A DNA stretch of 64,000 nucleotides from an uncultured Lachnospiraceae bacterium (GTDB lineage Bacteria; Bacillota; Clostridia; Lachnospirales; Lachnospiraceae), in assembly GCA_947589095.1 (NCBI GenBank), contig CANQBX010000007.1:1-64000 (forward strand). Direction: 5' to 3'. The notes below the pieces were generated by a model. The model was not told where the DNA came from. It searched no databases and saw nothing but the letters and a program-made list of their open reading frames with translations. The number at the start of each line of letters is the position of its first letter. Position 1 is the stretch's first letter. Below, in pieces: positions 4,585 through 49,614 of the stretch. Made by a program: the position numbers and the translations under genes.

Positions 4585-4768
4585 ATATGCGCACGGGGAG
4601 CAGGTACACTGTATCATACGACGAAGGACTTTGCGGCAGAATTATGACCGTGTAACAACAGTTAAATAAATTTCCTGTTCTTTAACTCCTGTTCAATAGA
4701 CGATCGTGCCCGGATCCGCTATACTATATTCAGAATCTATTCAGAGATCACAAAGGAGGCAGCGGATT

Positions 4769-5794
4769 ATGACGATCGGGGATGTTATCAAAAAATACAG
4801 AAAGAATCTGGGCTTGACGCAGGAGGAGATGGCAGCGCGCCTCGGCGTGACCGCTCCCGCCGTCAATAAATGGGAGAAAGGCAATACGCTTCCGGATGTC
4901 GCGCTGCTTGCTCCGATCGCGCGGCTGCTTGGCATTACCACGGATGAGCTTCTGGCCTTCCATGACGAGCTGACCGACGAAGAGATCAACCGGTATCTGA
5001 AGCAGGTTCAAAAGGATCTGGAGAGCAAAGACTTCGATGACGTATTCCGTTCCGTAAAAGAAAAGATCGAGGAGTATCCGAATTGCGAAAAACTGATCTG
5101 GCAGGCGGCCGTCATTCTGGACGCGGGACGAATGGCGGCAGGAATTCCGGACGAGGAAGACTATGATCGTGTGATATTTGGATGGTACGAAAGGTGCCTG
5201 CTCTCCGGAGACGAACGGATCCGCAATCAGGCGGCGGATTCATTGTTCCACGCGTATTTCCGGAAAGAGGATTATGAGAAAGCAGCCGGGTATCTGGATT
5301 ATTTCTCGCTGGAGAATCCGGAACGTAAAGAGGCGCTCGTAAACAGCAGGACTGGGAAGCGGGCAGAGGCTTACCGCGCGTACGAGGAACTGATCTTCAT
5401 CGGATACCAGCACCTGCAGATGACGTTAAATGATCTGCGCGCTCTTTATATGGAGGACGGTGATCATGAGATGGCGAGAAAGCTGGTTGAGGTCTCGTCC
5501 TCTGCCGCTTCCGTATTTGAAATGGGCGGGTATAACGAAGTCTGTTATGGACTGGAGGTCGCAGTATGGGAGAAGAACGCCGCATGGACGTCACAGATTA
5601 TGCGGGAGATACTGGACCGGATCGGTACGATCGGCGATTTTACAAAGTCCAGGCTCTATCAGCATATGACGTTCAAAACAACCGATCCTGATTTTGCGGC
5701 CGGATTAAAGCAGAAGCTTTTGGAATCTCTGGGTGACGAAACGTTTGATTATATGCAGGGGAATGAGGATTGGGAAACGCTGAAAGCAGGATGA
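4769..5794 (+). CDS. HTH (XRE/Cro) regulator with TPR-like C-terminal domain
   Basis: The protein has 341 residues. Residues ~4-60 form an XRE helix-turn-helix (TQEEMAARLGVTAPAVNKWE, then LPDVALLAPIARLLGITTDELL), which binds DNA. The remaining ~270 residues are helical and resemble tetratricopeptide repeats, a layout common in Lachnospiraceae XRE regulators; no sensor chemistry is apparent. I chose the ATG at 4769 because AAAGGAGG is 9 bases upstream and TIGDVIKKYRK is the usual N-terminus. A TATACT -10-like element lies at 4720. A terminator follows the gene. The target is unknown. Confidence 0.85.
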   Translation: MTIGDVIKKYRKNLGLTQEEMAARLGVTAPAVNKWEKGNTLPDVALLAPIARLLGITTDELLAFHDELTDEEINRYLKQVQKDLESKDFDDVFRSVKEKIEEYPNCEKLIWQAAVILDAGRMAAGIPDEEDYDRVIFGWYERCLLSGDERIRNQAADSLFHAYFRKEDYEKAAGYLDYFSLENPERKEALVNSRTGKRAEAYRAYEELIFIGYQHLQMTLNDLRALYMEDGDHEMARKLVEVSSSAASVFEMGGYNEVCYGLEVAVWEKNAAWTSQIMREILDRIGTIGDFTKSRLYQHMTFKTTDPDFAAGLKQKLLESLGDETFDYMQGNEDWETLKAG

Positions 5795-5828
5795 AAGCTG
5801 GCTGTAAATATCGCGGGGAATCCAAGTC

Positions 5829-5866
5829 AGGGACAGTCCGGAATCATGGATTGTCTCTGATTTTTT
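5829..5866 (+). terminator. Terminator of the HTH regulator gene
   Basis: AGGGACAGTCC (5829-5839) pairs, with two G-T wobbles, with GGATTGTCTCT (5848-5858). A T6 run follows at 5861-5866. Confidence 0.75.
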
Positions 5867-5893
5867 ATTCTGACATATTTTTCTTGATGATCA

Positions 5894-5926
5894 TGAGATT
5901 TTCGGATGAGTTTCACCGTCTAATAG
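5894..5926 (+). promoter_or_regulatory. Candidate ECF-sigma autoregulatory promoter
   Basis: TGAGAT (5894-5899), 17-base spacer, then CGTCTAATAG (5917-5926). A CGTC -10 core followed by TAATA is typical of ECF promoters in Firmicutes, and it lies ~120 bases before the ECF sigma gene. The -35 is an imperfect match to TGAAAC. Autoregulation is inferred. Confidence 0.5.
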
Positions 5927-6044
5927 ATGTATACAGTACAGTGAACGTTCACGAAGAATTGCAGCATAAATCAGTCACAGACACAGCGGCGCGGAACCAT
6001 GGCAGCCGCACTGCCAAACAGACAGAAAGGCACAGGAAGAGCCT

Positions 6045-6587
6045 ATGGAGATAACGGAGATTCACCTGGAAACAGAGAAGAACGATGGCTTCGAGCAACA
6101 GCTCGTTGCCCGCGCGAAAAGCCGGGATCCTGACGCGTTCGTCAGCCTGATGCAGCTTCACGCGAAGAGAATGTACCGAGTCGCGCTGGCGATCCTCTTA
6201 AATGATGAGGACGCGGCCGACGCGATCCAGGATACGATCCTGACCTGCTGGGAGAAGATGCATTCGCTTCGGGATGACCGGTATTTCAGTACCTGGATGA
6301 CCCGGATCCTGATCCGCAAATGCTATGATCTGCGGGATGAGAGGCGTCGCTACGCGGACATTGAGGAGATGCCGGAGCCGGCGGAGGAAGATCATTACAA
6401 TCTGGAACTGAAGGAAGCGCTGGCGACTCTCGATGAGAAATACCGTGTCATAATGGTTCTCTTCTACGCGGAGGGCTATCGGACCGACGAGATCGCCCAG
6501 ATCCTGCGGATCCCGAAAAGTACGGTCCAGACGCGGCTTCAGCGCGGTCGGGAGAAGCTGGCGAGGTATTACCGGGACGGGGAGTAA
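6045..6587 (+). CDS. ECF-subfamily RNA polymerase sigma factor
   Basis: The protein has 180 residues. Region 2 is visible as FVSLMQLHAKRMYRVALAIL ... DAADAIQDTILTCWEKMHSLRDDRYFSTWM, covering core binding and -10 recognition. Region 4 carries the HTH (EGYRTDEIAQILRIPKSTVQTRLQRGREKL) for the -35. Size and the absence of regions 1 and 3 define the ECF class. The partner DUF4179 membrane protein begins 43 bases downstream, and an ECF-like promoter lies upstream, fitting an autoregulated sigma/anti-sigma operon that senses envelope stress. Confidence 0.93.
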   Translation: MEITEIHLETEKNDGFEQQLVARAKSRDPDAFVSLMQLHAKRMYRVALAILLNDEDAADAIQDTILTCWEKMHSLRDDRYFSTWMTRILIRKCYDLRDERRRYADIEEMPEPAEEDHYNLELKEALATLDEKYRVIMVLFYAEGYRTDEIAQILRIPKSTVQTRLQRGREKLARYYRDGE

Positions 6588-6630
6588 ACGGAGAAATGAC
6601 CGACACAATCTTACGAAGAGGAGATACAGG

Positions 6631-7869
6631 ATGAAAAACAGAGAATTCTATGTATTTAGAGAAGAAACAGAGCTGCCGGACGTGGTAAATGAGAAAATGA
6701 ACGCGGCATTCCGGCAGATCCGGGAGACATCCGGGCAGCGGACAGGCAGAATTTACGGCTTGCGGACGCGGCAATCCAGGGAGCGTGCCACCGGCACACT
6801 TCCCGCATGGAAATATCGTCGTACGGCGGCTGCCGCGGCGTGCGCGGCGCTCCTGGCGGCAGGAGTGATCACGGCGGCCGCCGCGGCTTACACCTACTGG
6901 GGCCGCGGAATGAGCGGCGCTCTGAAGGCATCGCCTGAGCAGCAGAAAGAACTGACGGAGCAGGGGATGGCTGTTGTGTTTTCCGAAAGCACCGCGGCCG
7001 AAACCGGTTCTGACACAACAGAAGAAAATTCGGCAATACAGAAGATCGCGCCGGTCACGGTAAACGGTGTCACCATCGCGCCGCATACAACCGTCGCTGC
7101 CGGCGACTGTGTGTGGATTTCCTTCACGGTGGACGGCTTCGCGCTTCCGGATGGAGCGGAGCCGGGCTTTGATAACGTGGATTTTCACGGGTTCGGCGAC
7201 GACCTGCGCGGACGGACCAGCTGGTTCAACGCCTGCCACAGCTTCTACGACGGAATCGTTTCCGACGGCAGCGGTCATCCGGTCTACGAGGACGGGACGG
7301 TTCCGGACGGCCAATTGGTGCCTCGGTATACGGATGAAAACGGTACAATGGAGTATATTTTACAGATATCGGCAGATACGGACGACAGCTTTCTGGGCCG
7401 GGAACTCCATATCACATTTCACGATCTGGGAACCTTCGATCGGGGTACATTCCGTAAGCTTACGGAGGGAAGCTGGGATTTTACCATCCCGCTCTCCGGC
7501 AGCGACGCCTACCGGACATTTGCCGCCGCGGATCCCATCGGAGAAACCGGGATTATAGTAAAGGAACTGGAGATATCGCCGGTGTCGGTCCGGGCGTTGC
7601 TGTCTGTTCCGGCCGGAACCGATCCGGAATTTGTCTCGGAACTGACCTATCCCTGCGGCCTTCAGTTTAAGGACGGAACCATGCTGCCGTTTCTTTCTGA
7701 CGGCGGTGGCGGCTCCTTTACGGATGATACGAAGACGGAATACCGGATCATGCATCCATTCGAACGGATCATCGATCTGGCGCAGGTGGACGCGCTGGTC
7801 CTGCAGAATCCGGATGAAGCGGGGAAGCCGCGGGGAGAGAACAGTTATTATATCATTCCTCTGAAATAA
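6631..7869 (+). CDS. DUF4179-type membrane-anchored anti-sigma factor
   Basis: The protein has 412 residues. A ~65-residue basic cytoplasmic N-terminus is followed by one Ala-rich membrane segment (about residues 66-88), then a long extracytoplasmic region. The part just outside the membrane has the DUF4179 look: LKASPEQQKELTEQGMAVVF, then APVTVNGVTIAPHTTVAAGD and later PDGAEPGFDNVDFHG. It starts 43 bases after the ECF sigma gene behind AGAGGAG. DUF4179 proteins paired with ECF sigma factors are taken to hold the sigma at the membrane until a signal arrives; the signal here is unknown. Confidence 0.8.
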   Translation: MKNREFYVFREETELPDVVNEKMNAAFRQIRETSGQRTGRIYGLRTRQSRERATGTLPAWKYRRTAAAAACAALLAAGVITAAAAAYTYWGRGMSGALKASPEQQKELTEQGMAVVFSESTAAETGSDTTEENSAIQKIAPVTVNGVTIAPHTTVAAGDCVWISFTVDGFALPDGAEPGFDNVDFHGFGDDLRGRTSWFNACHSFYDGIVSDGSGHPVYEDGTVPDGQLVPRYTDENGTMEYILQISADTDDSFLGRELHITFHDLGTFDRGTFRKLTEGSWDFTIPLSGSDAYRTFAAADPIGETGIIVKELEISPVSVRALLSVPAGTDPEFVSELTYPCGLQFKDGTMLPFLSDGGGGSFTDDTKTEYRIMHPFERIIDLAQVDALVLQNPDEAGKPRGENSYYIIPLK

Positions 7870-8066
7870 AGAGCGTCGCTGGCACCCTGCCTGCATGAAA
7901 ACATAAATGCGCCGCTGCGAAGCAGATCCCATGTCAGCTGAGCAGCGGCTTTCTGTATGGTTTGTCTGTTACGGATTCATCATCGACAGCCGGGCAGAAG
8001 AACAGCCAGTTATAAGTCCGCTGAGTACCAATATCTTTGACATGGCAGGTAAGAACAAAAGAGTCA

Positions 8067-8095
8067 TTGACATTGTCTGTAGCATGTGTTATATT
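8067..8095 (+). promoter_or_regulatory. Consensus sigma-A promoter of the sdpR-sdpI module
   Basis: TTGACA (8067-8072), 17-base spacer, TATATT (8090-8095). It is immediately followed by the palindrome at 8099, so a bound repressor would block initiation. Confidence 0.85.
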
Positions 8096-8098
8096 ATA

Positions 8099-8123
8099 TT
8101 TAACATTTAAGCTAAATGTTAAA
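8099..8123 (+). promoter_or_regulatory. Palindromic operator for the ArsR/SdpR-type repressor
   Basis: A perfect inverted repeat: TTTAACATTTA (8099-8109), spacer AGC, TAAATGTTAAA (8113-8123). It overlaps the expected transcription start, 18 bases before the sdpR-like ATG. Size, AT-richness and position fit an ArsR-family dimer site, indicating autorepression. Confidence 0.8.
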
Positions 8124-8140
8124 TATGGAGGCTGATTTTC

Positions 8141-8443
8141 ATGGGAATGCAGGACACATTAAGGGCGCTGGCGGATCCGACCCGGCGTGAAATCTTAAAT
8201 CTCCTGAAACCGGGCCGAATGTCCGCCGGTGAGATCGCGGAACATTTCCCGGTCAGCGGCGCGTCCATTTCCAGGCATCTGTCGGTCTTAAAGGACGCGG
8301 ATCTGATCCGGGACCAACGGGAGGGAAAGTACATTTTCTATGAACTGAACGTGTCGGTTCTGGAGGAGATCATGCTCTGGATCACGGATCTGACGGAAGA
8401 GAGCGGCCGCATTATGAAGCTTGGCACTGCAAAGGAGGAATAA
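8141..8443 (+). CDS. sdpR: ArsR-family autorepressor, SdpR-like
   Basis: The protein has 100 residues. It has MQDTLRALADPTRREILNLL and GRMSAGEIAEHFPVSGASIS, the winged-helix ArsR core in the form seen in the SdpR subfamily, then SRHLSVLKDADLIRDQREGKYIFYELN forming the recognition helix and wing. No metal-binding cysteines are present, so it is not an As/Cd sensor. The next gene is an SdpI homologue starting right after its stop (TAAATG). In Bacillus, SdpR is titrated by toxin-bound SdpI at the membrane, relieving repression; a similar circuit is inferred here. Confidence 0.88.
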   Translation: MGMQDTLRALADPTRREILNLLKPGRMSAGEIAEHFPVSGASISRHLSVLKDADLIRDQREGKYIFYELNVSVLEEIMLWITDLTEESGRIMKLGTAKEE

Positions 8444-9754
8444 ATGCGTCGTCCGGATGAGGATTTCTCACTTATCATGAAGCAGTATAAATGGCAGATC
8501 ATTCTGTCGACGATCCTGGTGCTTCTGCCGGCCGCTGCCGGGTTCTTCCTGCTGGCCGCCGCGGGAAGCGCGTCATCGGAGGCCGGAGGAATCGCCTCCT
8601 CGGTCGCGGGCGGACGCCTGAAAGCAATGATCGTTATGTCGCTGTTCTGTCTGCCGAACCATTTTCTCGCGGTCTGGCTTACGCTGCGCGATCCGAAGAA
8701 CCGGGAGCGGAACCGGCAGATGATAAGCTTTATCTTCTGGATCTGTCCGGTCATATCGATCTTCAGCTGCGGCAGCATGTACCGGATCTATACCGGCGCC
8801 CGCGCGGATCAGGGCACGGGCATATCCGTATGTATGGGGCTGATGTTTATTGTTTTGGGAAATTATCTGCCTAAGACCGGACAGAATCACACAGTGGGAA
8901 TCCGCGTGCCGTGGACACTGGCGGATGAAGAGAACTGGAATGCGACGCATCGGTTCGGCGGCCGGGTCTGGGTCGCCGGCGGATTCATTACGATGATCGG
9001 AAGTTTCCTTCCCGGGACGCTGGGACACAGGATCGTGCCGGCGGCGCTTCTGGTGGTCGCTTTGGCTCCGATTCTTTATTCTTATCTGTATTATCGAAGA
9101 CAAAGGAAGCAGAGGAGGCTGTCCGAAACACAGATATCGCAGGGCGCTCAGATGAATCCGAAACGAATGAATTCAAGTCAAACAGATATGGGCGTGAAGA
9201 ATGCCGGAAAAACATCTGCCGAATATGATAAAGCAGGTAATGCGGAGAGAATTGCAACCAGTGAAAAAACCGTTTACGAGGTAAGAAATGTATACGGAGA
9301 AAGGATCTCTACAGAAACAAAAAATACTCCTCTTGCAAGTAAAAAGAGCATATATACTACATCCGCAGTTTCTCTCGGAATCCTCGCTGCAATTCTCATC
9401 GGAACGGCGGTGCTTATGTTCACCGGCAATATCCGCTGCGAGTTTGCGGACGAAGCATTCACGATCAAAGCCTTTTACTGGGATGATCTGACGGTCGCCT
9501 ACGACGAGATCGACAGCCTGGAACTGCGGGAGTACGGTGTTCCTGGCTATCGAAGCTTCGGCTTCGGAAATGCACGGCTGGGGATGGGAACATTCGAGAA
9601 TGAAGAGTTCGGCTCGTATACGCGCTATACCTATGCAGGAAGCCAACCCTGTCTTGTAATCGAAGCAGGCGGTGAGACATTGGTCTTAAACGGAAAGAAT
9701 GAAGCGGAAACCCTGGCAATCTATGAACGGCTGAAGGCTGAGATTTCTAATTGA
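8444..9754 (+). CDS. SdpI-family immunity/sensor membrane protein with C-terminal PH-like domain
   Basis: The protein has 436 residues. It has a DUF1648/SdpI-type arrangement of membrane helices: segments near 15-35, 62-82, 90-108, 120-140, 182-200 and 203-220. The family signatures LGNYLPKTGQNHTVGIRVPWTL and WNATHRFGGRVWVAGG are present. A polar linker (residues ~225-300) leads to a further membrane helix and a C-terminal beta-rich domain like the small bacterial PH domains (FTIKAFYWDDLTVAYDEIDS ... ETLAIYERLKAEI). SdpI confers immunity to the SdpC killing factor and transduces its presence. No sdpC-like toxin gene is visible, so it may guard against other strains. Confidence 0.85.
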   Translation: MRRPDEDFSLIMKQYKWQIILSTILVLLPAAAGFFLLAAAGSASSEAGGIASSVAGGRLKAMIVMSLFCLPNHFLAVWLTLRDPKNRERNRQMISFIFWICPVISIFSCGSMYRIYTGARADQGTGISVCMGLMFIVLGNYLPKTGQNHTVGIRVPWTLADEENWNATHRFGGRVWVAGGFITMIGSFLPGTLGHRIVPAALLVVALAPILYSYLYYRRQRKQRRLSETQISQGAQMNPKRMNSSQTDMGVKNAGKTSAEYDKAGNAERIATSEKTVYEVRNVYGERISTETKNTPLASKKSIYTTSAVSLGILAAILIGTAVLMFTGNIRCEFADEAFTIKAFYWDDLTVAYDEIDSLELREYGVPGYRSFGFGNARLGMGTFENEEFGSYTRYTYAGSQPCLVIEAGGETLVLNGKNEAETLAIYERLKAEISN

Positions 9755-39789: not shown

Positions 39790-40098
39790 TCAGGCGTTGA
39801 TCTTGTCGATCTTAACCTGGGTGAACAGCTGTCTGTGACCGTTCTTCTTGTGATATCCGGTCTTCCTCTTGTACTTGTAGACGATCACTTTCTTCGCTTT
39901 CCCCTGCATCTCAACAGTCGCGGAAACGCTGGCTCCCTCGACAGTCGGGCATCCGACCTTGAGTTCTCCGTCACTCACCGCAAGCACCTGGTCAAAGGTC
40001 ACGGTCTCGCCAGCTTCCACCGGAAGCTTCTCAATCCTAATGACATCGCCCTCGGATACCTTATACTGCTTACCGCCGGTAGCAATAATAGCGTACAT
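39790..40098 (-). CDS. rplU: 50S ribosomal protein bL21
   Basis: This 102-residue protein starts [20 protein letters not shown] with the standard bL21 fold, ending with [20 protein letters not shown], the rRNA-binding signature. GAGGAGG lies 7 bases before the ATG at 40098. First gene of rplU-prp-rpmA. Confidence 0.97.
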
Positions 40099-40211
40099 AT
40101 ATGGCACCTCCTCTTTATCATTACTCGCCAACTACGGTGTCCCCGCAGCCTGTCCCCAATGCGGAGCCGGCCCGGAATCTTTCAGAACCTCATTGTGCGG
40201 CACACTAACAA
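40099..40211 (-). promoter_or_regulatory. Long structured 5' leader of rplU (candidate L21 leader)
   Basis: About 110 bases separate the promoter from the rplU start. The RNA is GC-rich and holds pairable blocks (for example CCGGCTCCGCAT region near 40150-40165). Firmicutes have an autoregulatory L21 leader here. The assignment is by position; I could not verify the consensus. Confidence 0.4.
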
Positions 40212-40240
40212 ATCATATCATTTCGCCGGCCAAATGTCAA
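40212..40240 (-). promoter_or_regulatory. rplU operon promoter
   Basis: On the - strand TTGACA (40240-40235), 17-base spacer, TATGAT (40217-40212). Confidence 0.88.
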
Positions 40241-40304
40241 CCGTAAAATCGAATAATTTCCGGTCATTTCCGGGCAATCATTTCCGGTCATGCGGCCGCA
40301 CAGA

Positions 40305-41357
40305 TCAGTATCCGGCGCCGCGGCAGTCGAAATGCATGTAATCCGGCGTATACTGCCAGTCTCCTCCCCAGGTGAACCCGGCTTCTTTAAATAAGCGGAC
40401 GCACAGATCGTCCGGATCGATCTTATAGGGATAATCCTGCGTGCGGTCCAGGTAATTGACGCCGGCGACAGGCGTGCACACCTTCTCCCCGTCTGTATTA
40501 TATCCGGAAATGATATACGGATTATACAGCGGATTGATGTTCACGGCGAGCCCCCTCGCGTGATACGAGAGCCTGTCGGTATTGGCTATGCTGCGGAAGT
40601 TAAAGCACGACGTGTTGTTGTCCGAGCTGGACGCCTCATCGTCCGCGTCGTATTCGTCCACCAGAACCATTTTCTCGATCGGATAACGGGCGTCATACAG
40701 CTGCCTGAAAATAGAAAGCAGAACGTCCGTGATCCGCCGGTTGCTGATCATTTCGCCCACGTGGATATTTCCCTCCAGGTCATAATGCAGAAGCTGCATA
40801 TACCGCAGGTCCTCACGCGGGACTGTGCAGCCCTCCTTATAGGATTTCCCGTAGATCCTGGCAAAGGTCGCATCATCCAGCGGCTCCTGCCGGAACAGCT
40901 CGTCCGTTCCGATACCGGCGACCTCTTCCGGTGAAAGAATACAGCCCGGAGTAATATCGATCAGCGCATCGGACGCATTTTCGGCGGACGGCTCCGTTTC
41001 CCCGGCTTCATCCGCGGGCGTCTCTTCCGGTTCTGCCTCAGCGGCGCCTTCGGAAGCGCCGGACGCTTCCGTATCCGTCCCGTCGGACGGCGCCGTCTCC
41101 ATGGCCGACGTCGTTTCCTCGGGCGCTGTCTCCGGCTCCTCTTCCGCCGGCAGCCGGCCTGCCTGCGAAGCGGTCGTTTCATCGGCGGTAATGATCGTTA
41201 TCCTGGCCGCGTCTGTTGACGATTTTATGGAGCCCGCTTCCGTTTCGACAAATTTAAGCCCCTCCGCACCCGAACAACCGGCCAGACCGATCACCAGCAG
41301 AAAAAGCGCCGCCTGCTTCCGAAAACCGTTATCCTTATTTTTTCTCTGATCGAGCAT
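40305..41357 (-). CDS. M15 (VanY-like) D,D-peptidase-fold lipoprotein with a substituted zinc ligand
   Basis: The 350-residue protein has a lipobox (IGLAGC, Cys28) and a ~100-residue acidic linker. The C-terminal M15 fold has SYHARGLAVNINPLYNPYI and WQYTPDYMHFD. M15 enzymes bind zinc with H-x6-D-H: here His266 and His342 are kept but the Asp is Asn273 (codon AAC). The paralogue at 47592 keeps Asp in the same context (SKHAKGLAVDINP). This copy may therefore be catalytically weak or a stem-peptide binder. It overlaps the DltA-like gene by 23 bases and ends the dlt-like operon. Confidence 0.8.
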   Translation of the reverse strand: MLDQRKNKDNGFRKQAALFLLVIGLAGCSGAEGLKFVETEAGSIKSSTDAARITIITADETTASQAGRLPAEEEPETAPEETTSAMETAPSDGTDTEASGASEGAAEAEPEETPADEAGETEPSAENASDALIDITPGCILSPEEVAGIGTDELFRQEPLDDATFARIYGKSYKEGCTVPREDLRYMQLLHYDLEGNIHVGEMISNRRITDVLLSIFRQLYDARYPIEKMVLVDEYDADDEASSSDNNTSCFNFRSIANTDRLSYHARGLAVNINPLYNPYIISGYNTDGEKVCTPVAGVNYLDRTQDYPYKIDPDDLCVRLFKEAGFTWGGDWQYTPDYMHFDCRGAGY

Positions 41358-42864
41358 ACGTTTCCTTCAACCCCCTGCGGTCTGCTTTGCCGTTTTCGTT
41401 TCTCGGCATCTGTTCAAGGCGGATGTACCGGTTCGGCATCATATAACGCGGAATCCTTTCCGAGATACGGCCCGAGATCGTCCTGGAATCTATTTTTTCG
41501 GCGGACGTATACAGCATCAGGATCATCTGCTTTTCCTCGTTGTAGACGCAGACGCATTCGCTGATCTCAGGGACTGCCGAAGCGGCCGCTTCGATTTCCC
41601 CGAGCTCGATCCGGTATCCCATCCGTTTGATCTGAAAGTCCTCTCGTCCATGGTAGACGATATTTCCGTCCGCATCATATGACGCGATATCCCCCGTACG
41701 GTAGAACCGTTCGCTTTCCGTGGACGCGGTTTTTAAGAAAATGAAGCGGTCTTTTGTCTTCTCCGGATCCTTGTAATATCCGAGAGACAGGGCCGCGCCG
41801 CCGATACACAACTCTCCCTCTGCCTCCGACCCGGGCGGGACAGGCCGTCCGCCCTCATCCAGGATCAGGGCCCTGACATTTTCGCATGCCTGTCCGAGCG
41901 GCAGCCGCTCCTCGTCCCTAAAGTCCCGGAAGAGCTCATAGAACATACTGACATGGGTCTCCGTCGAACCGTACATGTTCACATAACGCGCGTCCGGCAG
42001 ATGACGTCTCCAGTAATTCAAGTATCTTACCGGCATCACCTCGCCGATAAAGAAAATATAACGGAGGAACGCAGGCAGCTGAGTGTCGAAGCCGTTCAGC
42101 CTGGCAACCACCGTCAGTGCGGACGGAACCCAGAAAACGGACGTTACATGTCTGTCGTTTAAGCAGTTGACCAGCCTGGCAGGGGAAGAAAAATACTCCT
42201 GCGGAATGATATACGTACTGCAGCCGAACCGGAGAGGTACGAAAATATCATGAAGCGATATGACGAAATGGAACGGCACCTGGCTGCCCAGGACATCCTC
42301 CGGCTCATAGGGAAATTCCTTCGCAAGCCAGCGGAGGTTATTAAGAATCATTCGATGGCAGCCCATAACGCCCTTGGGGATCCCCGTTGAACCGCTGGTA
42401 AACAGGATATAAAGCGGGTCCGTCTCCCTTCGGCTGTCCCGGATATGCGCCAGCAGTTCCGCATCCTCCGGCGTTCCGCTCAGCCCGGCAAAGTCCCAGA
42501 CCGGACAGGCAGGAGAAAAAAGCTTCGTCAGATCGCGGCTGTCCGTCTCTGCGATGACAGCGGCCGGATCCAGCACGGAAAGGATTGTCCGGATACGCTC
42601 CTCCGGCATGGAAACGTCGATCGGGCAATAGCAGCAGCCTCCGTACAGAACGCCGAGAATGGCGACCGCCATAGACGCGCTTTTTTCCATAAAGACAGCC
42701 ACCGGCCGGCCGGGGGCCCTAAGGCTCCCTACCCGGCTGCCGATGGCTCTCGCTGTGCGTACGGCTTCCGCAAAAGTATAGGTACGTTCTGGGTCGCTGT
42801 AAACACACCGGTCAGGATAAGAGACCGCTGTCTCTTCCAGAAATTCCAGAACACTTTTCTTCAT
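41335..42864 (-). CDS. DltA-like carrier-protein ligase (adenylation domain) with non-D-Ala pocket
   Basis: The 509-residue protein is collinear with DltA: ILFTSGSTGIPKGV (154-167), NMYGSTE (296-302), YRTGD (388-392), GREDFQIKRMGYRIELGEIE and the C-terminal catalytic Lys493 in NENGKADR. It should adenylate a carboxylic acid and load it on the ACP encoded 3 genes upstream. In DltA the pocket Asp (PFSFDLS) binds the amino group and a Cys (FCGEVLP) selects D-Ala. Here they are Val201 (PFHFVIS) and Ile273 (FIGEVMP). An acyl group without an alpha-amino group is therefore likely; identity unknown. Confidence 0.85.
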   Translation of the reverse strand: MKKSVLEFLEETAVSYPDRCVYSDPERTYTFAEAVRTARAIGSRVGSLRAPGRPVAVFMEKSASMAVAILGVLYGGCCYCPIDVSMPEERIRTILSVLDPAAVIAETDSRDLTKLFSPACPVWDFAGLSGTPEDAELLAHIRDSRRETDPLYILFTSGSTGIPKGVMGCHRMILNNLRWLAKEFPYEPEDVLGSQVPFHFVISLHDIFVPLRFGCSTYIIPQEYFSSPARLVNCLNDRHVTSVFWVPSALTVVARLNGFDTQLPAFLRYIFFIGEVMPVRYLNYWRRHLPDARYVNMYGSTETHVSMFYELFRDFRDEERLPLGQACENVRALILDEGGRPVPPGSEAEGELCIGGAALSLGYYKDPEKTKDRFIFLKTASTESERFYRTGDIASYDADGNIVYHGREDFQIKRMGYRIELGEIEAAASAVPEISECVCVYNEEKQMILMLYTSAEKIDSRTISGRISERIPRYMMPNRYIRLEQMPRNENGKADRRGLKETYARSEKK

Positions 42865-42878
42865 CCGTCAAACCCCCG

Positions 42879-43418
42879 CTATTTCTCCGGAATTACAATG
42901 TACTCGATCGCATCGACCACATCCTTGGTGGTGTAAACCTTTAACTGGGTATTTCCGGCCGTATAGGCATATGTGCCGAATTTCGCCTCGTCCGCATTAT
43001 ACGCGTCGCCGTAAGCGGCAAGAACTTCCTTCTTGGTGGAGCCGATCTTGATGCCCTCCGGCGTCGATACGGAAGCGTCGAAGATATATACCGATTCAAC
43101 GCAGTCTTTCTTGTTTACAGGATAGGTACAGAGCTCGAAGCCCTTATAGGTGTACACCTTATTCTTTCCCTGATATGCGCAGCTGTCGCGCTCAAAGGTA
43201 GAGGCCGCTTTTCCAAGCGCCTTCAGGATCCCGGCCGCCTCCGCCCCCATCGAAATAACGGTCTCGCCGGATTTGAATTCATATTTTACCTCTTCTTCCT
43301 TCGTCTCTGTCTTTTTGCCAGCCAAAGGCCCGCCGATCGCCAGGGACGGAACCGCCGATGAAACCGTCATCGCAGCGGCAAGTGCCAGAACAACCAGGGT
43401 TTTCAAACTCCTCTTCAT
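42879..43418 (-). CDS. Small secreted protein, BamE/SmpA-like C-terminal fold, unknown function
   Basis: The 179-residue protein has a clear signal peptide (KTLVVLALAAAMTVSSAVPSLA). Residues ~120-179 contain PEGIKIGSTKKEVLAAYG followed by strands and VDAIEYIVI, the helix-then-sheet pattern of the BamE/SmpA-like fold seen in many Clostridial surface proteins. Two Cys residues (about 81 and 97) could form a disulfide. It sits inside the dlt-like operon between the SGNH and ligase genes, so probably helps handle the modified surface polymer. No function assigned. Confidence 0.7.
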   Translation of the reverse strand: MKRSLKTLVVLALAAAMTVSSAVPSLAIGGPLAGKKTETKEEEVKYEFKSGETVISMGAEAAGILKALGKAASTFERDSCAYQGKNKVYTYKGFELCTYPVNKKDCVESVYIFDASVSTPEGIKIGSTKKEVLAAYGDAYNADEAKFGTYAYTAGNTQLKVYTTKDVVDAIEYIVIPEK

Positions 43419-43433
43419 AAATTTTCTCCTCCT

Positions 43434-44531
43434 TTATTGTATATAAAATTGTTTAATATAACCAAGCCTGGCGAACTCCTCTTCCTGAGAAGCCTTCATC
43501 CGGTCGTAAAAATCGCATTTTTCCTGCCAGACGGTATCGAGCCCGATTCCCGCCTTATATCCGCGCGCCGCGCCGGAAACGGTTCCCCTGCGGTCTTCGA
43601 CGCCCGGGATTTCAAGAAGGATCGGCCCCCAATACCGGGCCATCTTCTCCGCTCCGTACACATTCATGTGAAGTCCCGCGTCGTAGGTGTCGGTCGAAAA
43701 ATCAATGCCGATGTCGTCGGAAACCTCCAGACAGTTCACGTATGTGAGATCATGCTCCGCCGCGTATTCCTCGATCTGGACCTCCCACTGATCGTACCAC
43801 GCCGGATAAAGCGAAGGCGCTTTCATCAGAACCAGCCGGATTCCGTTCTGCTCACAGAGCGTACGGATCTTCTCCAGATATTCCCAGCAGCGCGGATCGA
43901 AGGAATAATCCGATCTCCGCCGCTCTACCGGCAGATCTCCCGCCGGCCTCACATCCGCCCGCAGGTAGTAGCCGTTATGGGCCACTTTGCCGCTCCCCAT
44001 GAAATATTTCAGATCGTCCGGCTCCAGTTCCTTAAAGCGGGAATGGAACCGAAGGATCGGAAAAATGTATTCTATTATATGCTCATCTTCCATCCTGGTT
44101 GCGCGGATCGCGTTCCACTTGGAAGAGGACCAGCGCATTCCGTCCATGGTCATACGGTTGTAGCTCTCATTATCCTGCTCAAACTGCTGCATGGCAGATA
44201 CGTTGAAAACGACGGCCGCAGGCGTCTCATAGGCGAGCGTATCCTCTAACAGATAATAGGACTGAGCGATCAGCTGCTGCGCGTTGCCGCGTATATAGCT
44301 GGTGATGCCGAATTCCCTCCACAAAACGATCGGCGAAATATTCTCGTAGACCTCGCAGTTCCCGAGAAATATCACATCGTGGGGCGTCGTCTCTTCATAA
44401 TATTCGGAAGTGAAATTCCCCTCGACGACCAGTCCCATATATTTGGGCTCCACAAGTCTCTGCAGGCCGGCGATCACGGCCGCGCCCGCCGCCGCAAGAA
44501 GCAGAACGCAGACCGGTTTCTTCCATCTCAT
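43434..44531 (-). CDS. SGNH/DltD-like membrane-anchored protein with Cys in the nucleophile block
   Basis: The 365-residue protein has one N-terminal membrane helix and an outside SGNH-type domain. The first block is VIFLGNCEVYENISP, where DltD-like proteins have G-x-S; the last block is DAGLHMNVYGAEKMA (D-x-x-H-x-N), the SGNH catalytic D/H motif. Such proteins partner MBOAT acyltransferases, as DltD does with DltB and AlgX/AlgJ with AlgI. The Cys at the Ser position would make a thiol nucleophile or an inactive fold. It lies 12 bases after the MBOAT gene. Confidence 0.75.
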   Translation of the reverse strand: MRWKKPVCVLLLAAAGAAVIAGLQRLVEPKYMGLVVEGNFTSEYYEETTPHDVIFLGNCEVYENISPIVLWREFGITSYIRGNAQQLIAQSYYLLEDTLAYETPAAVVFNVSAMQQFEQDNESYNRMTMDGMRWSSSKWNAIRATRMEDEHIIEYIFPILRFHSRFKELEPDDLKYFMGSGKVAHNGYYLRADVRPAGDLPVERRRSDYSFDPRCWEYLEKIRTLCEQNGIRLVLMKAPSLYPAWYDQWEVQIEEYAAEHDLTYVNCLEVSDDIGIDFSTDTYDAGLHMNVYGAEKMARYWGPILLEIPGVEDRRGTVSGAARGYKAGIGLDTVWQEKCDFYDRMKASQEEEFARLGYIKQFYIQ

Positions 44532-44543
44532 GGGCTCCGCCTC

Positions 44544-46133
44544 CTAAAACTGATTATAAATAAACCGGCTGGCGTCATATCCGCGTCCGTAGCAACCCGT
44601 CACCAGTATCGCGGCAAACAGCAGAAACACCGCGGTATAGCGCAGAACAAGCGGTCTTTCGGCCAGTCTTTTCCGGACGCTTCCGGACTCCTGCAGAACG
44701 CTGACCGCCAGCATAAGGATAAGGCCGGCCGCCAATACCGCCAGGTCCGCTCCCGCAAGCCCCAATTCCGCGAAACGCCCGTCATACAGCTGGGACAGGC
44801 GCCCCGTCGTGATCAGACTGCCCAGCATCGCGAATACCGTTCCGAACGAATAGTACTGAAACATCAGCAGAACCGAAAACAGCAGGCCGGTCCGTACCTT
44901 CTGGAACGCGCCGTATACGCTTCCGTCCGCTTTCGGGAAACGTCTGTGAAAGCCGCGGTACAGCTCCGCAAACTCCTGCGAAACCATCATGACGATGCCG
45001 TTGGCAAGTCCCCACAGGACAAAATTCCAGGCCGCTCCATGCCAGATACCGGTGACAAACCATACGATCAGATTGGCGGTATAAACCGGCAGCTTTTTAC
45101 TGAGCGTTTTCAGCCCCGCCTTTCCTGCCAGGTGCGAAACGGCCCTGCAGAAACGGCTCGTCGATACCGGAAAGAAAACATATTCCCTGAACCATCCGGT
45201 CAGCGTCATATGCCATCTGCGCCAGAGCTCCGAAAGGTTCTTCGCCCCGAACGGTCTTTGGAAATTCTCAGGCAGCCGGATGCCGAAGCACTGCGACGTC
45301 CCGATCACGATATCCATACAACCGGAAAAATCAGCATACAGACGGAGCGTATACCCCAGCATGCCGAGCAGCACATATATCCCGTCATATGTCTCCGGCG
45401 ATGAAGTGATCATCGCGACAGCCGGGGCAATACGGTCGGCAATTACCAGCTTCTTGAAAAAGCCCCAGAGGATACGCCATAATCCGAAGGTGAACTGGGT
45501 CCCGTCAAAGGCGTGTTCCCGGAACAGCTCCTCACGCAGCAGATCGAAACGGCTGATCGGTCCGCTGGTCATCTGCGGGAAATACGTAACAAAAAGCATA
45601 AACCGGAACAGATTCTTCTCCGGCTTATACCGGCCCCGGAAAACATCGATCAGGTATCCCATGGTCTGAAAGGTATAATAGGAAATACCCAGCGGAAGGA
45701 GCCAGCCGGCCTGCCATACAGATCCGTCTTCTCCGGCAAGGGGAATAAGCAGGTTCAGATTCTGCAGGAAAAAATCCGTGTACTTCAAAACCGCCAGGAT
45801 ACCGAAGTTAAGCAGGATACCCGCGATCATCAGCCGCTTTTTCCGCTTTCTTATGTGAGCCTGGTATGCCTTTTTCTGCTCCTTGTCCGGCTTATGCTCC
45901 TGTATGTACGCTTTGGATACGCTGTCCTCTTTCCCGATCCTGAGCGCAAGAAACCACGTGCTCACGGCCGTTGCCAGCGGATACAGCAGATAGACGGCTC
46001 CGCCGCCCGCATAAAACAGAATGCTGACGGCCAGAAGAAGCATCCACTGAAACCTTCCGGGGACCAGGTAATACAGCAGAGCCGCGATGGCGAAAAAGGC
46101 TAAAAATTCGTAAGACACCAGCGACATGGTCAT
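44544..46133 (-). CDS. MBOAT-family membrane O-acyltransferase (DltB/AlgI-like)
   Basis: This 529-residue protein has ~11 helices. MBOAT signatures: GISYYTFQTMGYLIDVFRGR, NFLRFMLFVTYFPQMTSGPI-like (FRFMLFVTYFPQMTSGPISR), RPFGAKNLSELWRRWHMTLT and the catalytic His (about 362) in GIWHGAAWNFVLWGL. It moves acyl groups across the membrane from a carrier protein to a surface polymer. It overlaps the ACP gene by four bases. Confidence 0.9.
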   Translation of the reverse strand: MTMSLVSYEFLAFFAIAALLYYLVPGRFQWMLLLAVSILFYAGGGAVYLLYPLATAVSTWFLALRIGKEDSVSKAYIQEHKPDKEQKKAYQAHIRKRKKRLMIAGILLNFGILAVLKYTDFFLQNLNLLIPLAGEDGSVWQAGWLLPLGISYYTFQTMGYLIDVFRGRYKPEKNLFRFMLFVTYFPQMTSGPISRFDLLREELFREHAFDGTQFTFGLWRILWGFFKKLVIADRIAPAVAMITSSPETYDGIYVLLGMLGYTLRLYADFSGCMDIVIGTSQCFGIRLPENFQRPFGAKNLSELWRRWHMTLTGWFREYVFFPVSTSRFCRAVSHLAGKAGLKTLSKKLPVYTANLIVWFVTGIWHGAAWNFVLWGLANGIVMMVSQEFAELYRGFHRRFPKADGSVYGAFQKVRTGLLFSVLLMFQYYSFGTVFAMLGSLITTGRLSQLYDGRFAELGLAGADLAVLAAGLILMLAVSVLQESGSVRKRLAERPLVLRYTAVFLLFAAILVTGCYGRGYDASRFIYNQF

Positions 46134-46360
46134 TCATCCTCTTGAAGCCGCTCGATCAGATCCATCATAGCCCGGACGGAATTAAAATTCTCGGGAATAA
46201 TGGCTTCCGACGGAACGGACACGCCAAATTCATCGCTGATCTGCGTTACAAGCATCACCAGTTCAAAAGAAGTCAGGATCTCATCGTCGACCAGATGCTC
46301 ATTCGTCTCATAATCCGCATCGGGATTTATATCATTCAGAATCTCAAGCAGTTCATCCAT
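46130..46360 (-). CDS. Acyl carrier protein, DltC-like, with unusual TSF phosphopantetheine site
   Basis: The 76-residue protein has helices and the loop DDEILTSFELVMLV; Ser31 would take the phosphopantetheine arm. Most ACP/DltC have D-S-[LM]; here the residue before Ser is Thr30. VTQISDEFGVSVPSEAI matches helices 2-3. The ATG at 46360 has AAAGGAG 8 bases upstream. It should shuttle the acyl group from the DltA-like ligase to the MBOAT protein. Confidence 0.82.
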   Translation of the reverse strand: MDELLEILNDINPDADYETNEHLVDDEILTSFELVMLVTQISDEFGVSVPSEAIIPENFNSVRAMMDLIERLQEDE

Positions 46361-46377
46361 GCTCCGAACTCCTTTCA

Positions 46378-47454
46378 TCAGGGTGTAGGCGGATAAATCG
46401 AACGGTCAAATGCGAAGCAGTTGCCGTGGCCCGCCGAATAATTCAGCATCTGGGCGTCCGTCCACAGGCAGAAATATCCGCCAAGTCTTCTCGGCGTCGC
46501 ATCGAAATGGTACCAGTTGCCGTCGCTTAACTGAACCAGGTTCCAATAATGCCCGTTATCCGTATAGCGCAGGACCTCGATGCAGGGGATACCGCACCGC
46601 ATAAGGAGAGCCGCCGATACGGAATAATAGGTGAAACAGTCTCCGTGACGCCTGCGGAATCCGTTATAGGCCTCCAGAACCCAGTCTCTGGTCGCCGCAT
46701 GGCCGCTGTATGTAAAGCTTCCCCGTACCCAGGCGTATATGGCCTCCGCCTTCTGGCGGTCCGTCATACTGTTGTTTACGATCCCGGCCAGAATGGAATC
46801 CGCCATCGCGGAAACCGTCTGCCACATCTCCTGCTGTTCGGCGGAAACGCTGGTTATCGCTTTGTAGGGCCATGCCGCCGCGCCCGAGCTGCCGAACGTA
46901 TAGGTCACTCCGCCGACGGTAAGCTGGGTATCGTGGGCCATGGCGCCGTTGTCGTACAGGTAATAGGTAGCGCCGCCGTCGCTGATCAGTCCGGTCTTCA
47001 TATAGCCGACCGAATCGAAATAATACCATTCGCCGTCGATCTGTTTCCAGCCGTTGGTCACAAAGGATCCGTCCGGATTTCTGTAATACCAGTTAATATC
47101 GTCGATCATCCATCCGGAATAGAACGGTGAAAGATTTGTCCCGACTCCGTCATGATCGAACTTCCAGACGCTTCCTTCCAGCGTCTGGGTCCGGTCCGCG
47201 ATCATGGTGCCGTCCGTGACACGCAGATAATAGGTCTTGCCTCCCGAATAAAGGAAACCTGTATGCGCGTATCCGTCCTCGTCAAAATAATACCAGGGCC
47301 CGTTCTCTCCGTTCTGATACCATCCGGTCACATCCGCTCCCGCTTCATCACGGCACCGGAATCCGGTTCCGTCATGATACACGGTCCCGGCTGCGGACGA
47401 TATGGCAAATAAGCAGGAAAAAATGATTGAAAATAGAAAAATACGTGTTTTCAT
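46378..47454 (-). CDS. Secreted transglutaminase-like protein with cell-wall-binding repeats
   Basis: The protein has 358 residues. A signal peptide (~1-22) precedes four or five choline/cell-wall-binding-type repeats of ~20 residues (GWYQNGENGPWYYFDEDGYA, GWKQIDGEWYYFDSVGYMKT and others, residues 40-185). A transglutaminase-like domain follows with Cys in RRHGDCFTYYSVSAAL, His in NGHYWNLVQL and Asp in WYHFDATP. Such domains are often proteases or cross-linkers at the wall. First gene of the dlt-like operon with a consensus promoter 64 bases upstream. Confidence 0.85.
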   Translation of the reverse strand: MKTRIFLFSIIFSCLFAISSAAGTVYHDGTGFRCRDEAGADVTGWYQNGENGPWYYFDEDGYAHTGFLYSGGKTYYLRVTDGTMIADRTQTLEGSVWKFDHDGVGTNLSPFYSGWMIDDINWYYRNPDGSFVTNGWKQIDGEWYYFDSVGYMKTGLISDGGATYYLYDNGAMAHDTQLTVGGVTYTFGSSGAAAWPYKAITSVSAEQQEMWQTVSAMADSILAGIVNNSMTDRQKAEAIYAWVRGSFTYSGHAATRDWVLEAYNGFRRRHGDCFTYYSVSAALLMRCGIPCIEVLRYTDNGHYWNLVQLSDGNWYHFDATPRRLGGYFCLWTDAQMLNYSAGHGNCFAFDRSIYPPTP

Positions 47455-47517
47455 AGTTCCTTATCCATCCAGTTCTTAACTGATTTGATTGCGATATACG
47501 GATATATATCACCTTAT

Positions 47518-47546
47518 ATAATAGCGCTCATTTATATTCATGTCAA
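47518..47546 (-). promoter_or_regulatory. Promoter of the dlt-like operon
   Basis: On the - strand TTGACA (47546-47541), 17-base spacer, TATTAT (47523-47518). The seven genes down to 40305 have short or overlapping junctions and no strong terminator between them. Confidence 0.88.
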
Positions 47547-47591
47547 TACACATTATCACGAAACAAAGCAGTGCCGAAGCTCTTCGCCGCC

Positions 47592-48473
47592 TTATTTTTC
47601 TTTCTCAAAATGCATGTAATCCGGCGCGCTTTCCCATGTTCCTCCCCATGTAAATCCGGCTTCGGTGAACAGCTGGTAGCACAAATCGTTTTCATCGATC
47701 TTATAGGAAAAATCAAGCGTTCTGTCCGCATAATCCGAAGCGCCTGCCGGTACAGTGCCGGTTCCGCTGCTGAGAATATAAGGATTATACAGCGGGTTGA
47801 TATCAACGGCCAGCCCCTTCGCATGTTTGGAAAGACTGCTCCCCTCCGTCTTTTTGCGGTAATTAAAGCAGGAGGAATTGTTGTCGGCACAGGAGGACTC
47901 ATCGTCGGCATCGTACTCGTCGATCAGGAGTATCTTTTCAACCGGGTATTTCTCCTCATAGAGTCTGTGAAAGATATAAAGGACGTCGCTGCTGACGGAT
48001 CGGTTGCAGATGAGTTCCCCGACCCGGACATTGCCGTAAAAATCATAGTGAAGGACCTGGAGGTAGCGCAGCTCGTCCCGGATATTACAGTCATCCTTAT
48101 AGGATTTTCCGTTGATGCGTTCAAAGATCGAATCCGAGATCCCGCTCTGCCAGAAGAACTGATCCGCATTGGAGGCGTTAAGCGATTCGGCAGGCAGCTT
48201 CTGCCCCGGCACCACGTCGTGGGGCAGCGGGAGCGCCTCCGTCGTCTCTTCCGCCGTCGTGGAAGGTTCTTCCGTCGTCTCCTGCTCTATGCTCTCAAAT
48301 GTCTCCGGTTCAAACAGCGTCTCCACTCCCAGAAGCTCATGGGGCTTCACGCCGCAGCCGGTAAGAAAAAGCCCTGCCAGAAGGGCCGCAGCCAGAAGGC
48401 CCGCCCATACTCCTTCCCTTAACTTTGCCGATCTGCTTATCTTCTTCATCGCATCTTCACCGCCACTGCTCAT
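47592..48473 (-). CDS. M15 (VanY-like) D,D-carboxypeptidase lipoprotein, zinc ligands intact
   Basis: The 293-residue protein has a signal with lipobox (FLTGC, Cys40) and a Thr/Glu-rich linker. The M15 ligands are His217 and Asp224 in SKHAKGLAVDINPLYNPYI and His288 in PDYMHFE, with the standard H-x6-D spacing. It probably trims terminal D-Ala from stem peptides. It is a close paralogue of the protein at 40305. Start at 48473 (AAGGAA upstream) overlaps rng by 17 bases; an internal ATG at 48449 is also possible. Confidence 0.85.
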   Translation of the reverse strand: MSSGGEDAMKKISRSAKLREGVWAGLLAAALLAGLFLTGCGVKPHELLGVETLFEPETFESIEQETTEEPSTTAEETTEALPLPHDVVPGQKLPAESLNASNADQFFWQSGISDSIFERINGKSYKDDCNIRDELRYLQVLHYDFYGNVRVGELICNRSVSSDVLYIFHRLYEEKYPVEKILLIDEYDADDESSCADNNSSCFNYRKKTEGSSLSKHAKGLAVDINPLYNPYILSSGTGTVPAGASDYADRTLDFSYKIDENDLCYQLFTEAGFTWGGTWESAPDYMHFEKEK

Positions 48474-49614
48474 GCAGTGGTTTCCTTGTCTTTTTTCTCG
48501 TAATCTCGACCAGGCCCAGCCTGGTCATATCCAAAACGGTGGTCTTCACCGGATCGTTAAAGCAGTGCTCCGCCAGAGCGCGCAGCAGTTCTTCCCGGTC
48601 CGCGGCCGATTCCATATTGATGAAATCGACCAGGATGATACCGGACAGGTTCCGGAGACGAAGCTGTCTCGCCGTCTCCTTCGCCGCTTCCAGGTTGATC
48701 ATGCGGATCGTGTCCCTCACGGCCTTCCTGCCCGTAAATTTGCCGGTATTTACATCGATGACCGTCATGGCTTCCGTCTGCTCAATGACCAGATAAGCGC
48801 CGGACGCAAGCCACACACGCTTCTGCAGGGCGTCGTGAAGGTTCTTTTCGATGGAATACAGCTTCACCAGCGAGACCATCGGATCCTCGTAGAAACGCAG
48901 CCGTCCTGCCGTGTCCGGCTGTTCAGACTCCAGAAATTCCTTCAGCTTACGGAAAATCTCCCCATCGTCCGTCACGATCTCACCGGCTGTCTGCACGTCA
49001 TGATCCCGCAGCCTGGCAATATAGGACGGCGCTTCCTCATAAAGAAGGCTGAAGCATGTGCGGTAGGGGGCCGCCGCCAGGATCTGCTTCATCCGCTCCG
49101 TCAGCCGGTTCATCTCATTCAGGATCCGCTCCGGCGGCGCCTGATAGGCGTTTGTCCGCACGATCAGTCCGAAGGCGTCGTCTCTTGCGGAGCGAAGGTA
49201 TTCCGCCATCTGTTTCTTCCAGGCTTCATCGTTTATCTTGCCGGAAAAGCGGACGTGCCCTTTTTCTCCGGACGGATCCGCCGACAGGACGCAGTAGCGG
49301 CCGGTCAGCGTCAGCTGCGCGGTCAGAACCGGATCCTTCGACTTCACGGCGTCCTTCGACACCTGGACCAGGATCTCGTCCCCGGGGCGCAGCGCGTCCG
49401 AAGACGCGCCCGGACTGTAGTAGCCGGTGACGCCTCCGCCCAGATCCACAAATGCGGCGTTGATATTCTTCACCACATCCTTTACTTTTCCGATATAGAT
49501 ATTGCCCAGGAGCGACGGCCCGGGATCCTGAAAATCCATCTGGACCGCTTTCATGTCATCCATAAGGACGGTCAGGATCCGTCCTTCAAGCCTGGTAATG
49601 ATCAGTCTGTTCAA
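48457..49614 (-). CDS. rng: Ribonuclease G/E family endoribonuclease, lacking the Zn-link
   Basis: The protein has 385 residues from TTG at 49614 (NRLIITRLEGRILT). S1 domain: GNIYIGKVKDVVKNINAAFVD with an insertion GVTGYYSPG; RNase-H-like and 5'-sensor regions; catalytic Asp in TVIDVNTGKF and LVDFINM. It ends at TRKKTRKPLHEQWR, where longer relatives continue into the C-P-x-C zinc-link that holds the dimer. The TTG has GGGAGAG only two bases upstream, so the exact start is uncertain. Processes rRNA/mRNA. Confidence 0.88.
   Translation of the reverse strand: MNRLIITRLEGRILTVLMDDMKAVQMDFQDPGPSLLGNIYIGKVKDVVKNINAAFVDLGGGVTGYYSPGASSDALRPGDEILVQVSKDAVKSKDPVLTAQLTLTGRYCVLSADPSGEKGHVRFSGKINDEAWKKQMAEYLRSARDDAFGLIVRTNAYQAPPERILNEMNRLTERMKQILAAAPYRTCFSLLYEEAPSYIARLRDHDVQTAGEIVTDDGEIFRKLKEFLESEQPDTAGRLRFYEDPMVSLVKLYSIEKNLHDALQKRVWLASGAYLVIEQTEAMTVIDVNTGKFTGRKAVRDTIRMINLEAAKETARQLRLRNLSGIILVDFINMESAADREELLRALAEHCFNDPVKTTVLDMTRLGLVEITRKKTRKPLHEQWR

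Follow-up and report, generated by a model that had tools for sequence, protein, structure and literature searches.

A Lachnospiraceae operon with a cysteine-type SGNH protein and a ligase outside the DltA group probably encodes a cell-surface acylation system

We analysed a stretch of 64,000 nt (the window) from contig CANQBX010000007.1 of assembly GCA_947589095.1, an uncultured Lachnospiraceae bacterium, which carries on its minus strand an operon encoding, from 5′ to 3′, a transglutaminase-like protein (TG), an acyl carrier protein (ACP), an MBOAT protein, a predicted SGNH-fold acyltransferase (SGNH), a small secreted protein (SEC), a stand-alone adenylation ligase (LIG) and an M15_4-type lipoprotein (M15b). 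Judged from sequence, the operon probably specifies an MBOAT-SGNH cell-surface acylation system that uses a donor other than D-alanine and relays the acyl group through Cys59 of the SGNH protein. Across relatives, the cassette is best read as a near-constant core of TG, MBOAT, Cys-type SGNH and SEC combined with exchangeable donor modules. The MBOAT-SGNH relay is itself already known; the present system is widespread and apparently undescribed, and relative to the literature searched, the new elements are the donor modules and a Cys nucleophile that TG and SEC accompany almost constantly. Within the open-licence PubMed Central (PMC) literature we recognized no account of a TG-MBOAT-SGNH cassette, of a Cys-nucleophile SGNH acyltransferase or of surface D-aspartylation by a Dlt-like system.

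The SGNH protein (43434..44531; this and all features below lie on the minus strand) carries Cys59, within the motif GNCEVYEN, where DltD has Ser, together with His288 and Asp284. A preliminary description of this DNA had called the protein DltD-like; its AlphaFold model does show an SGNH fold, but Cys59 replaces the catalytic Ser and no Pfam family is matched at 1e-3. The nucleophile is Cys in 81/81 SGNH sequences (the window's and those of 80 loci), in 29/29 loci found by profile and in 20/20 further loci of the Cys set. One of the two search patterns used to find these relatives itself contained Cys, but bias from this source was rejected because the matches found by profile alone were also all Cys wherever they were read: among the 44 listed at E ≤ 1e-135 the nucleophile was read in 39 (the window, the 29 loci and nine more), and the next match after those 44 (G369) has Ser. 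A chance Ser-to-Cys change or a sequencing error was likewise discarded, given Cys in every close homologue examined and a low dN/dS; values of 0.06–0.20 for LIG, SGNH, MBOAT, TG and M15b (three relatives compared; two for TG) indicate that all five are under purifying selection.

The Cys nucleophile is closely linked to TG and SEC. All 160 loci with an SGNH match were clustered at 97% identity into 140 clusters (107 Cys and 33 Ser), and the headline counts required an upstream flank of at least 7 kb (full flank), which excluded 24 clusters; 20 Cys and 20 Ser extra loci had been chosen by hand among the profile matches listed. TG was present within 10 kb in 86/87 Cys clusters versus 0/29 Ser clusters, and SEC in 80/87 versus 0/29. 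An earlier de-duplication by hand, in which 14 loci were dropped and the near-duplicates L109/L252, L114/L115, L116/L117 and L103/L301 (the last across both sets) were left, gave TG in 73/74 Cys and 0/11 Ser loci with full flank. Among short-flank loci TG was found in 10/19 Cys and 1/3 Ser (L064, with a weak TG score). TG itself (46378..47454) is a secreted protein with a Transglut_core domain and choline-binding-type repeats, and the Cys-His-Asp triad of PF01841 is kept in 14/14 rows. SEC (42879..43418) matches no Pfam family above its cut-off by sequence, and none at 1e-3; among the families represented in the fold lists compared, its structure model resembles CAP-associated and DUF4309-like domains. 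Gene order varies among the 20 Cys loci compared, and these reshuffled orders weaken the view that the TG link is a mere frozen block, while a single ancestral association is still compatible with them.

LIG (41335..42864), composed of an AMP-binding domain and the C-terminal domain that belongs to it, scores 284 and 270 bits on two NCBIfam models of DltA and thus falls below both cut-offs (476 and 559.85, respectively). It exceeds the cut-off of the general adenylation model TIGR01733 (341 versus 317), yet lies outside the group of non-ribosomal peptide synthetase (NRPS) domains described below, and it also matches TIGR03098 (ligase_PEP_1), far below the cut-off. An adenylation-domain tree (quick search, unrooted) was built from 73 rows: 48 stand-alone ligases, 13 NRPS adenylation (A) domains and 12 DltA proteins. 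The latter represent 12 of 16 DltA-model loci (L187 lacks a full domain; L217, L222 and L223 were left out); four of the 12 exceed the DltA cut-off in one piece, and the others score 483–549 bits against 559.85. The 12 DltA rows group together (support 99), as do the 13 NRPS rows (support 96), and the 48 LIG rows, the window's included, form a third group on a branch of length 1.06 with support 100. LIG is therefore outside the 12-row DltA group, and at the level of sequence the outcome that the preliminary description had named as a refutation, a ligase inside verified D-Ala DltA clades, did not occur. Because LIG, DltA and NRPS A domains make up three separate groups, "Dlt-like" is a fitting term for the operon, but the derivation from dlt suggested in the preliminary description does not follow; the fused tail of the MBOAT, which is like that of PatA and stands in place of a separate DltX, lends it no support either.

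Pocket residues, mapped by alignment and given in PheA numbering, separate LIG from DltA. Position 278 is Trp in 48/48 LIG and Ser in 12/12 DltA; position 235, the Asp that holds the α-amine of the substrate, is Asp in 12/12 DltA and is absent from 11/48 LIG, with five as the fewest changes on the tree. The window's LIG has Val201 as the equivalent of Asp235, and the pocket string of its four-row clade is VIHWFIMVSK, compared with DLMSLCTAVK-like strings in DltA, so that the earlier claim of a pocket unlike those of D-alanine ligases is upheld. The closest tree relatives outside this clade, L052 and L055, have the string DVHWFAMVCK, and since these Asp-bearing loci occupy the same chromosomal site as the window's operon, Asp235 appears to have been lost in place. 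An ordinary dlt operon was rejected on the adenylation tree and the pocket residues together. This draft genome yielded no DltA that passes the family threshold, and its best match to the DltA model is the window's LIG. The same genome holds a second cluster of MBOAT, ACP and AMP-ligase genes (L010; contig C49, ~4500-9550), in which the ligase is 22% identical to the window's LIG with a pocket stretch (MNHSG) unlike that of an amino-acid ligase, and the MBOAT tail reads FIYMNF.

The carrier and the membrane protein complete the proposed donor route. ACP (46130..46378) belongs to the PP-binding family (PF00550), and its phosphopantetheine Ser, within ILTSFE, is kept in relatives. MBOAT (44544..46133; PF03062) has the WHG histidine and scores 165.4 bits on the DltB equivalog TIGR04091, below the cut-off of 375; it ends in a fused FIYNQF. 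Across 80 MBOAT C-termini (window included) this tail is exact in 65 and varied in 15, including three with a terminal Tyr. Relatives retain the active-site motifs of ACP, MBOAT, SGNH, TG and LIG alike. According to PMC12148441, FxYxxF is an acyl-shuttle motif, carried by DltX in the case of Dlt but fused to the MBOAT in PatA; MBOAT/SGNH pathways except Dlt are without a comparable carrier protein, and PatA takes acetyl-CoA as donor with no carrier. Because the FxYxxF tail is fused to its MBOAT, the operon joins the donor side of Dlt (ligase and carrier) to a Pat-type shuttle. There is no separate DltX within the operon, where gaps are at most 15 nt; the rest of the genome was not searched for DltX.

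Placed beside known systems, the operon most resembles the Dlt pathway of teichoic acid D-alanylation (DltA-DltC-DltB-DltX-DltD) in having a ligase, a carrier, an MBOAT and an SGNH-fold transferase. It differs in that its ligase lies outside the DltA group and has another pocket, its SGNH protein has Cys where that of Dlt has Ser, its shuttle motif is on the MBOAT and not on DltX, its type occurs nearly always with TG and SEC, and its gene order is different. The preliminary description, which saw counterparts of DltA to DltD in an order unlike dlt, was correct as to the counterparts and the order, although none of them qualifies as DltA, as DltB or as a Ser-type DltD. O-acetylation systems of the PatA/PatB and AlgI/AlgX type share an MBOAT with a C-terminal FxYxxF and a separate SGNH protein; the operon in addition has a ligase and a carrier, whereas PatA uses acetyl-CoA without a carrier, and PatB has Ser where the operon has Cys. 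Closer by ligase are Ser-type cassettes of ligase, ACP, MBOAT and SGNH (L059, L070, L246), which share the LIG group, ACP and an MBOAT with a similar tail, but which have a Ser nucleophile and neither TG, SEC nor racemase. The exosortase-A-associated ligase_PEP_1 (TIGR03098) and dCO2ase_PEP1 (TIGR03099) are likewise an AMP-forming ligase family and a pyridoxal phosphate (PLP) decarboxylase family, a likeness drawn from profile scores far below cut-off.

The cassette is conserved well beyond this genome. Within the host genus, LIG is matched at E ≤ 1e-150 in 16/26 genomes (13 of these at E ≤ 2e-286), and identical gene order with identical neighbours is seen in several, L052 and L055 among them. 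The SGNH protein of L075, from a metagenome-assembled genome (MAG) of an uncultured Lachnospiraceae bacterium, is 100% identical to the window's. One MAG of the genus (G009) has two versions of the operon (L045 and L048; contigs C20 and C61), with LIGs 100% and 82% identical to the window's, and its bin may be mixed. A scan with the SGNH alignment beyond the genus returned 572 relatives, of which 80 were kept, from Lachnospiraceae, Oribacterium, Oscillospiraceae, Thermoclostridium, Paenibacillus, Cohnella and others; among the carriers of the cassette is P. glycanilyticus (L116, a sister-group locus with a racemase-linked LIG, as is L264). The gene set is conserved in the form of its near-constant core, so that the second refuting outcome named in the preliminary description, a lack of conservation across genomes, did not occur either. 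The idea that wall-binding and peptidase modules had been added to a dlt set fared less well, as TG is part of that core; the M15 gene (protein cluster 7) is indeed variable, having been found in 16/33 loci of the window's group (G1) and 0/59 of its sister group (G2).

Clues to the donor come from genes beside the ligase. An Asp/Glu-type racemase gene is nearby in 32/49 full-flank loci of G2, 0/24 of G1 and 0/11 of the Ser loci. In 12/12 cases of a hand-chosen set it shares the strand of LIG and is no more than 300 bp away; in another set, near-duplicates included, 18/31 are within 300 bp and 30/31 on LIG's strand. The racemase matches TIGR00035 strongly and keeps both Cys of its pair in 33/33 sequences, and five scanned against the cysteate racemase CuyB (cut-off 190) scored 195.1, 193.9, 191.2, 177.5 and 174.1, three of them above it. 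Pocket position 239 is Lys, a residue known from Glu-activating domains, in 14 G2 rows of the pocket alignment, and Arg in the G2 members L114 and L115. For loci with the racemase, the donor is most likely an acidic D-amino acid, and that of the sister group may resemble Asp, Glu or cysteate. The clade of the window has lost Asp235, which points to a donor without an α-amine, so that its LIG probably loads an acid lacking the α-amino group. M15b (40305..41357; Peptidase_M15_4) changed on the same branch of the tree: Asn replaces the presumed zinc-ligand Asp of HxxGxAxD in the window, L076, L077, L078, L080 and L081, while the other M15 rows aligned, M15a included, keep Asp. This is a single coincident event, and M15b is still under purifying selection despite the Asn (dN/dS 0.14–0.20).

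Ser cassettes appear to use yet other donors. LIG was found in 6/20 Ser loci of the hand-chosen set, and in the cassettes scanned (L062, L070, L246) a LysA-like PLP enzyme of ~400 aa, which matches TIGR03099 far below cut-off, adjoins LIG or ACP and suggests another dedicated acyl donor. Such enzymes beside LIG or ACP suggest that donor modules have been exchanged. Genes similar in size, place and first residues occur in L067 (SGNH undetected), L251, L253 and L257, and in L059 and L261 a GNAT acetyltransferase gene stands between LIG and ACP, as though the loaded group were N-acetylated.

The tight gene spacing suggests how the operon is expressed. All seven open reading frames were found where they had been described, and because the gaps between them are only −23 to +15 nt (compared with 137 nt upstream to M15a and 173 nt downstream to L21), the genes look like a single transcription unit. 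The promoter that they had been said to share corresponds to a promoter-like TTGACA-17-TATTAT upstream of TG (47518..47546; 11/12 consensus), which is one of the two best sites in 40000-48600, the other (40240-40212) lying before L21; the scan found 14 promoter-like sites with 6.3 expected, so that any single site is weak evidence. A second M15_4-type lipoprotein with an intact motif, M15a (47592..48473), is the upstream neighbour and is probably transcribed separately. The operon sits between RNase G and M15a on one side and L21-L27-Obg on the other, where RNase G, L21, L27 and Obg are presumed names.

On the gene set, motifs, predicted folds, phylogeny and co-occurrence described above we base a proposal for the substrates, the order of transfer and the bond. 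LIG would adenylate a carboxylic acid other than D-alanine and load it onto ACP; MBOAT would carry the acyl group across the membrane onto Tyr in the FIYNQF at its own C-terminus, and this tail would pass it to Cys59 of SGNH as a thioester; and SGNH would give it to an extracellular acceptor, on which TG and SEC may also act in an assisting role. TG, MBOAT, Cys-type SGNH and SEC would then be the acceptor-side core, and LIG with ACP (plus the racemase in much of G2) an exchangeable donor module. A bolder version, rather unlikely in its entirety, holds that the system amide-links small acids to the surface via ACP thioester, MBOAT Tyr ester and SGNH Cys thioester with a dedicated transglutaminase, that acidic D-amino acids made by the racemase are the ancestral or commonest donors, and that a non-amino acid replaced them, at the same site, in the clade of the window, with the loss of Asp235 of LIG and the zinc-ligand Asp of M15b on the same branch.

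Several results weigh against this proposal in whole or in part. One Cys locus, L263, is without TG, and because the Cys-SGNH proteins are one family (albeit with reshuffled gene order) the TG link does not represent many independent events. No LIG lies within 10 kb in 6/87 full-flank Cys clusters; in L296, L297, L298, L299, L307 and L312 neither a ligase nor a carrier lies close to the TG-MBOAT-Cys-SGNH-SEC core, and a search of their whole genomes recovered LIG in two and, at E ≤ 1e-60, in none of the other four, so that the donor module is not universal. Since no racemase accompanies the group to which the window belongs, it gives no direct information on the donor of this operon. Lys239, a residue that would fit an acidic donor, occurs also in Ser cassettes whose ligases adjoin LysA-like enzymes (L070; L235, the ligase of L246), and for this reason, and for the Arg in L114 and L115, we dropped the argument that Lys239 proves an acidic donor; with Lys239 not specific, the racemase is the main evidence for one.

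A rearranged D-alanylation operon, in which LIG would load D-alanine or a near neighbour for an anionic glycopolymer while Cys is tolerated in SGNH, seems improbable to us. Functional counterparts of all four Dlt proteins are at hand, the DltA models are LIG's best matches after the general adenylation model, and LIG is the top DltA-model match of a draft genome in which no DltA above cut-off was found; against this stand its scores below the DltA cut-offs, its place outside the DltA group, a pocket other than DltA's, the amine-binding Asp gone from the window's clade, and a Cys that is invariant in close homologues and tied to TG. These same data support, from the side of sequence, the preliminary view of a Dlt-like envelope acylation system with a ligase other than DltA. 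Very improbable, in our estimate, is a pathway for a secreted small molecule or lipid, in which the MBOAT, supplied by LIG and ACP, would acylate a precursor of lipid or glycan nature, and the transcript would include TG, SEC and M15 simply as wall enzymes with no part in the pathway: MBOATs acylate many acceptors and the M15 gene is found in the window's group only, but TG and SEC follow Cys-SGNH through reshuffled orders, even without LIG and ACP.

The acceptor and bond admit further readings. That the relay ends on a partner protein, SEC or TG, and not on a polymer, with Cys80 of SEC as acceptor or second relay thiol, strikes us as unlikely; SEC directly follows SGNH in most Cys loci, is found in 80/87 full-flank Cys clusters but 0/29 Ser clusters and has an invariant Cys80 (47/47), but SEC goes undetected in 9/92 Cys loci (some on cut contigs) and in 7/87 full-flank clusters, and its model resembles CAP-associated and DUF4309 domains. 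A refinement of the acylation proposal, and not a competitor to it, is that amides are formed through the Cys of SGNH: the surface thioester would be attacked by an amine (amino sugar, Lys or wall peptide), and TG would make or remove similar bonds of isopeptide type on that acceptor. As a thioester suits transfer to an amine, an amide product deserves serious consideration, an ester also being conceivable, even if we hold this version only tentatively. It is favoured by the company of the Cys nucleophile with TG, which is a Cys enzyme of acyl/amide chemistry as well, by the lack of TG beside full-flank Ser homologues, and by the use of Cys thioesters for N-acylation in Lnt and transglutaminases; Cys enzymes form esters too, however, and bacterial TG-like domains are often proteases or hydrolases.

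Envelope acylation in many bacteria proceeds through MBOAT-SGNH pairs, and the pairs covered by the literature consulted terminate in a catalytic Ser. The acylation system proposed here offers a simple rule that can be tested, namely that Cys accompanies TG and SEC and that clues to the donor lie in the ligase pocket and in an adjoining racemase or PLP enzyme. If true, it would add an extra relay step, perhaps a new type of bond, and new acyl groups to the surfaces of gut Lachnospiraceae, other Clostridia and Paenibacillus.

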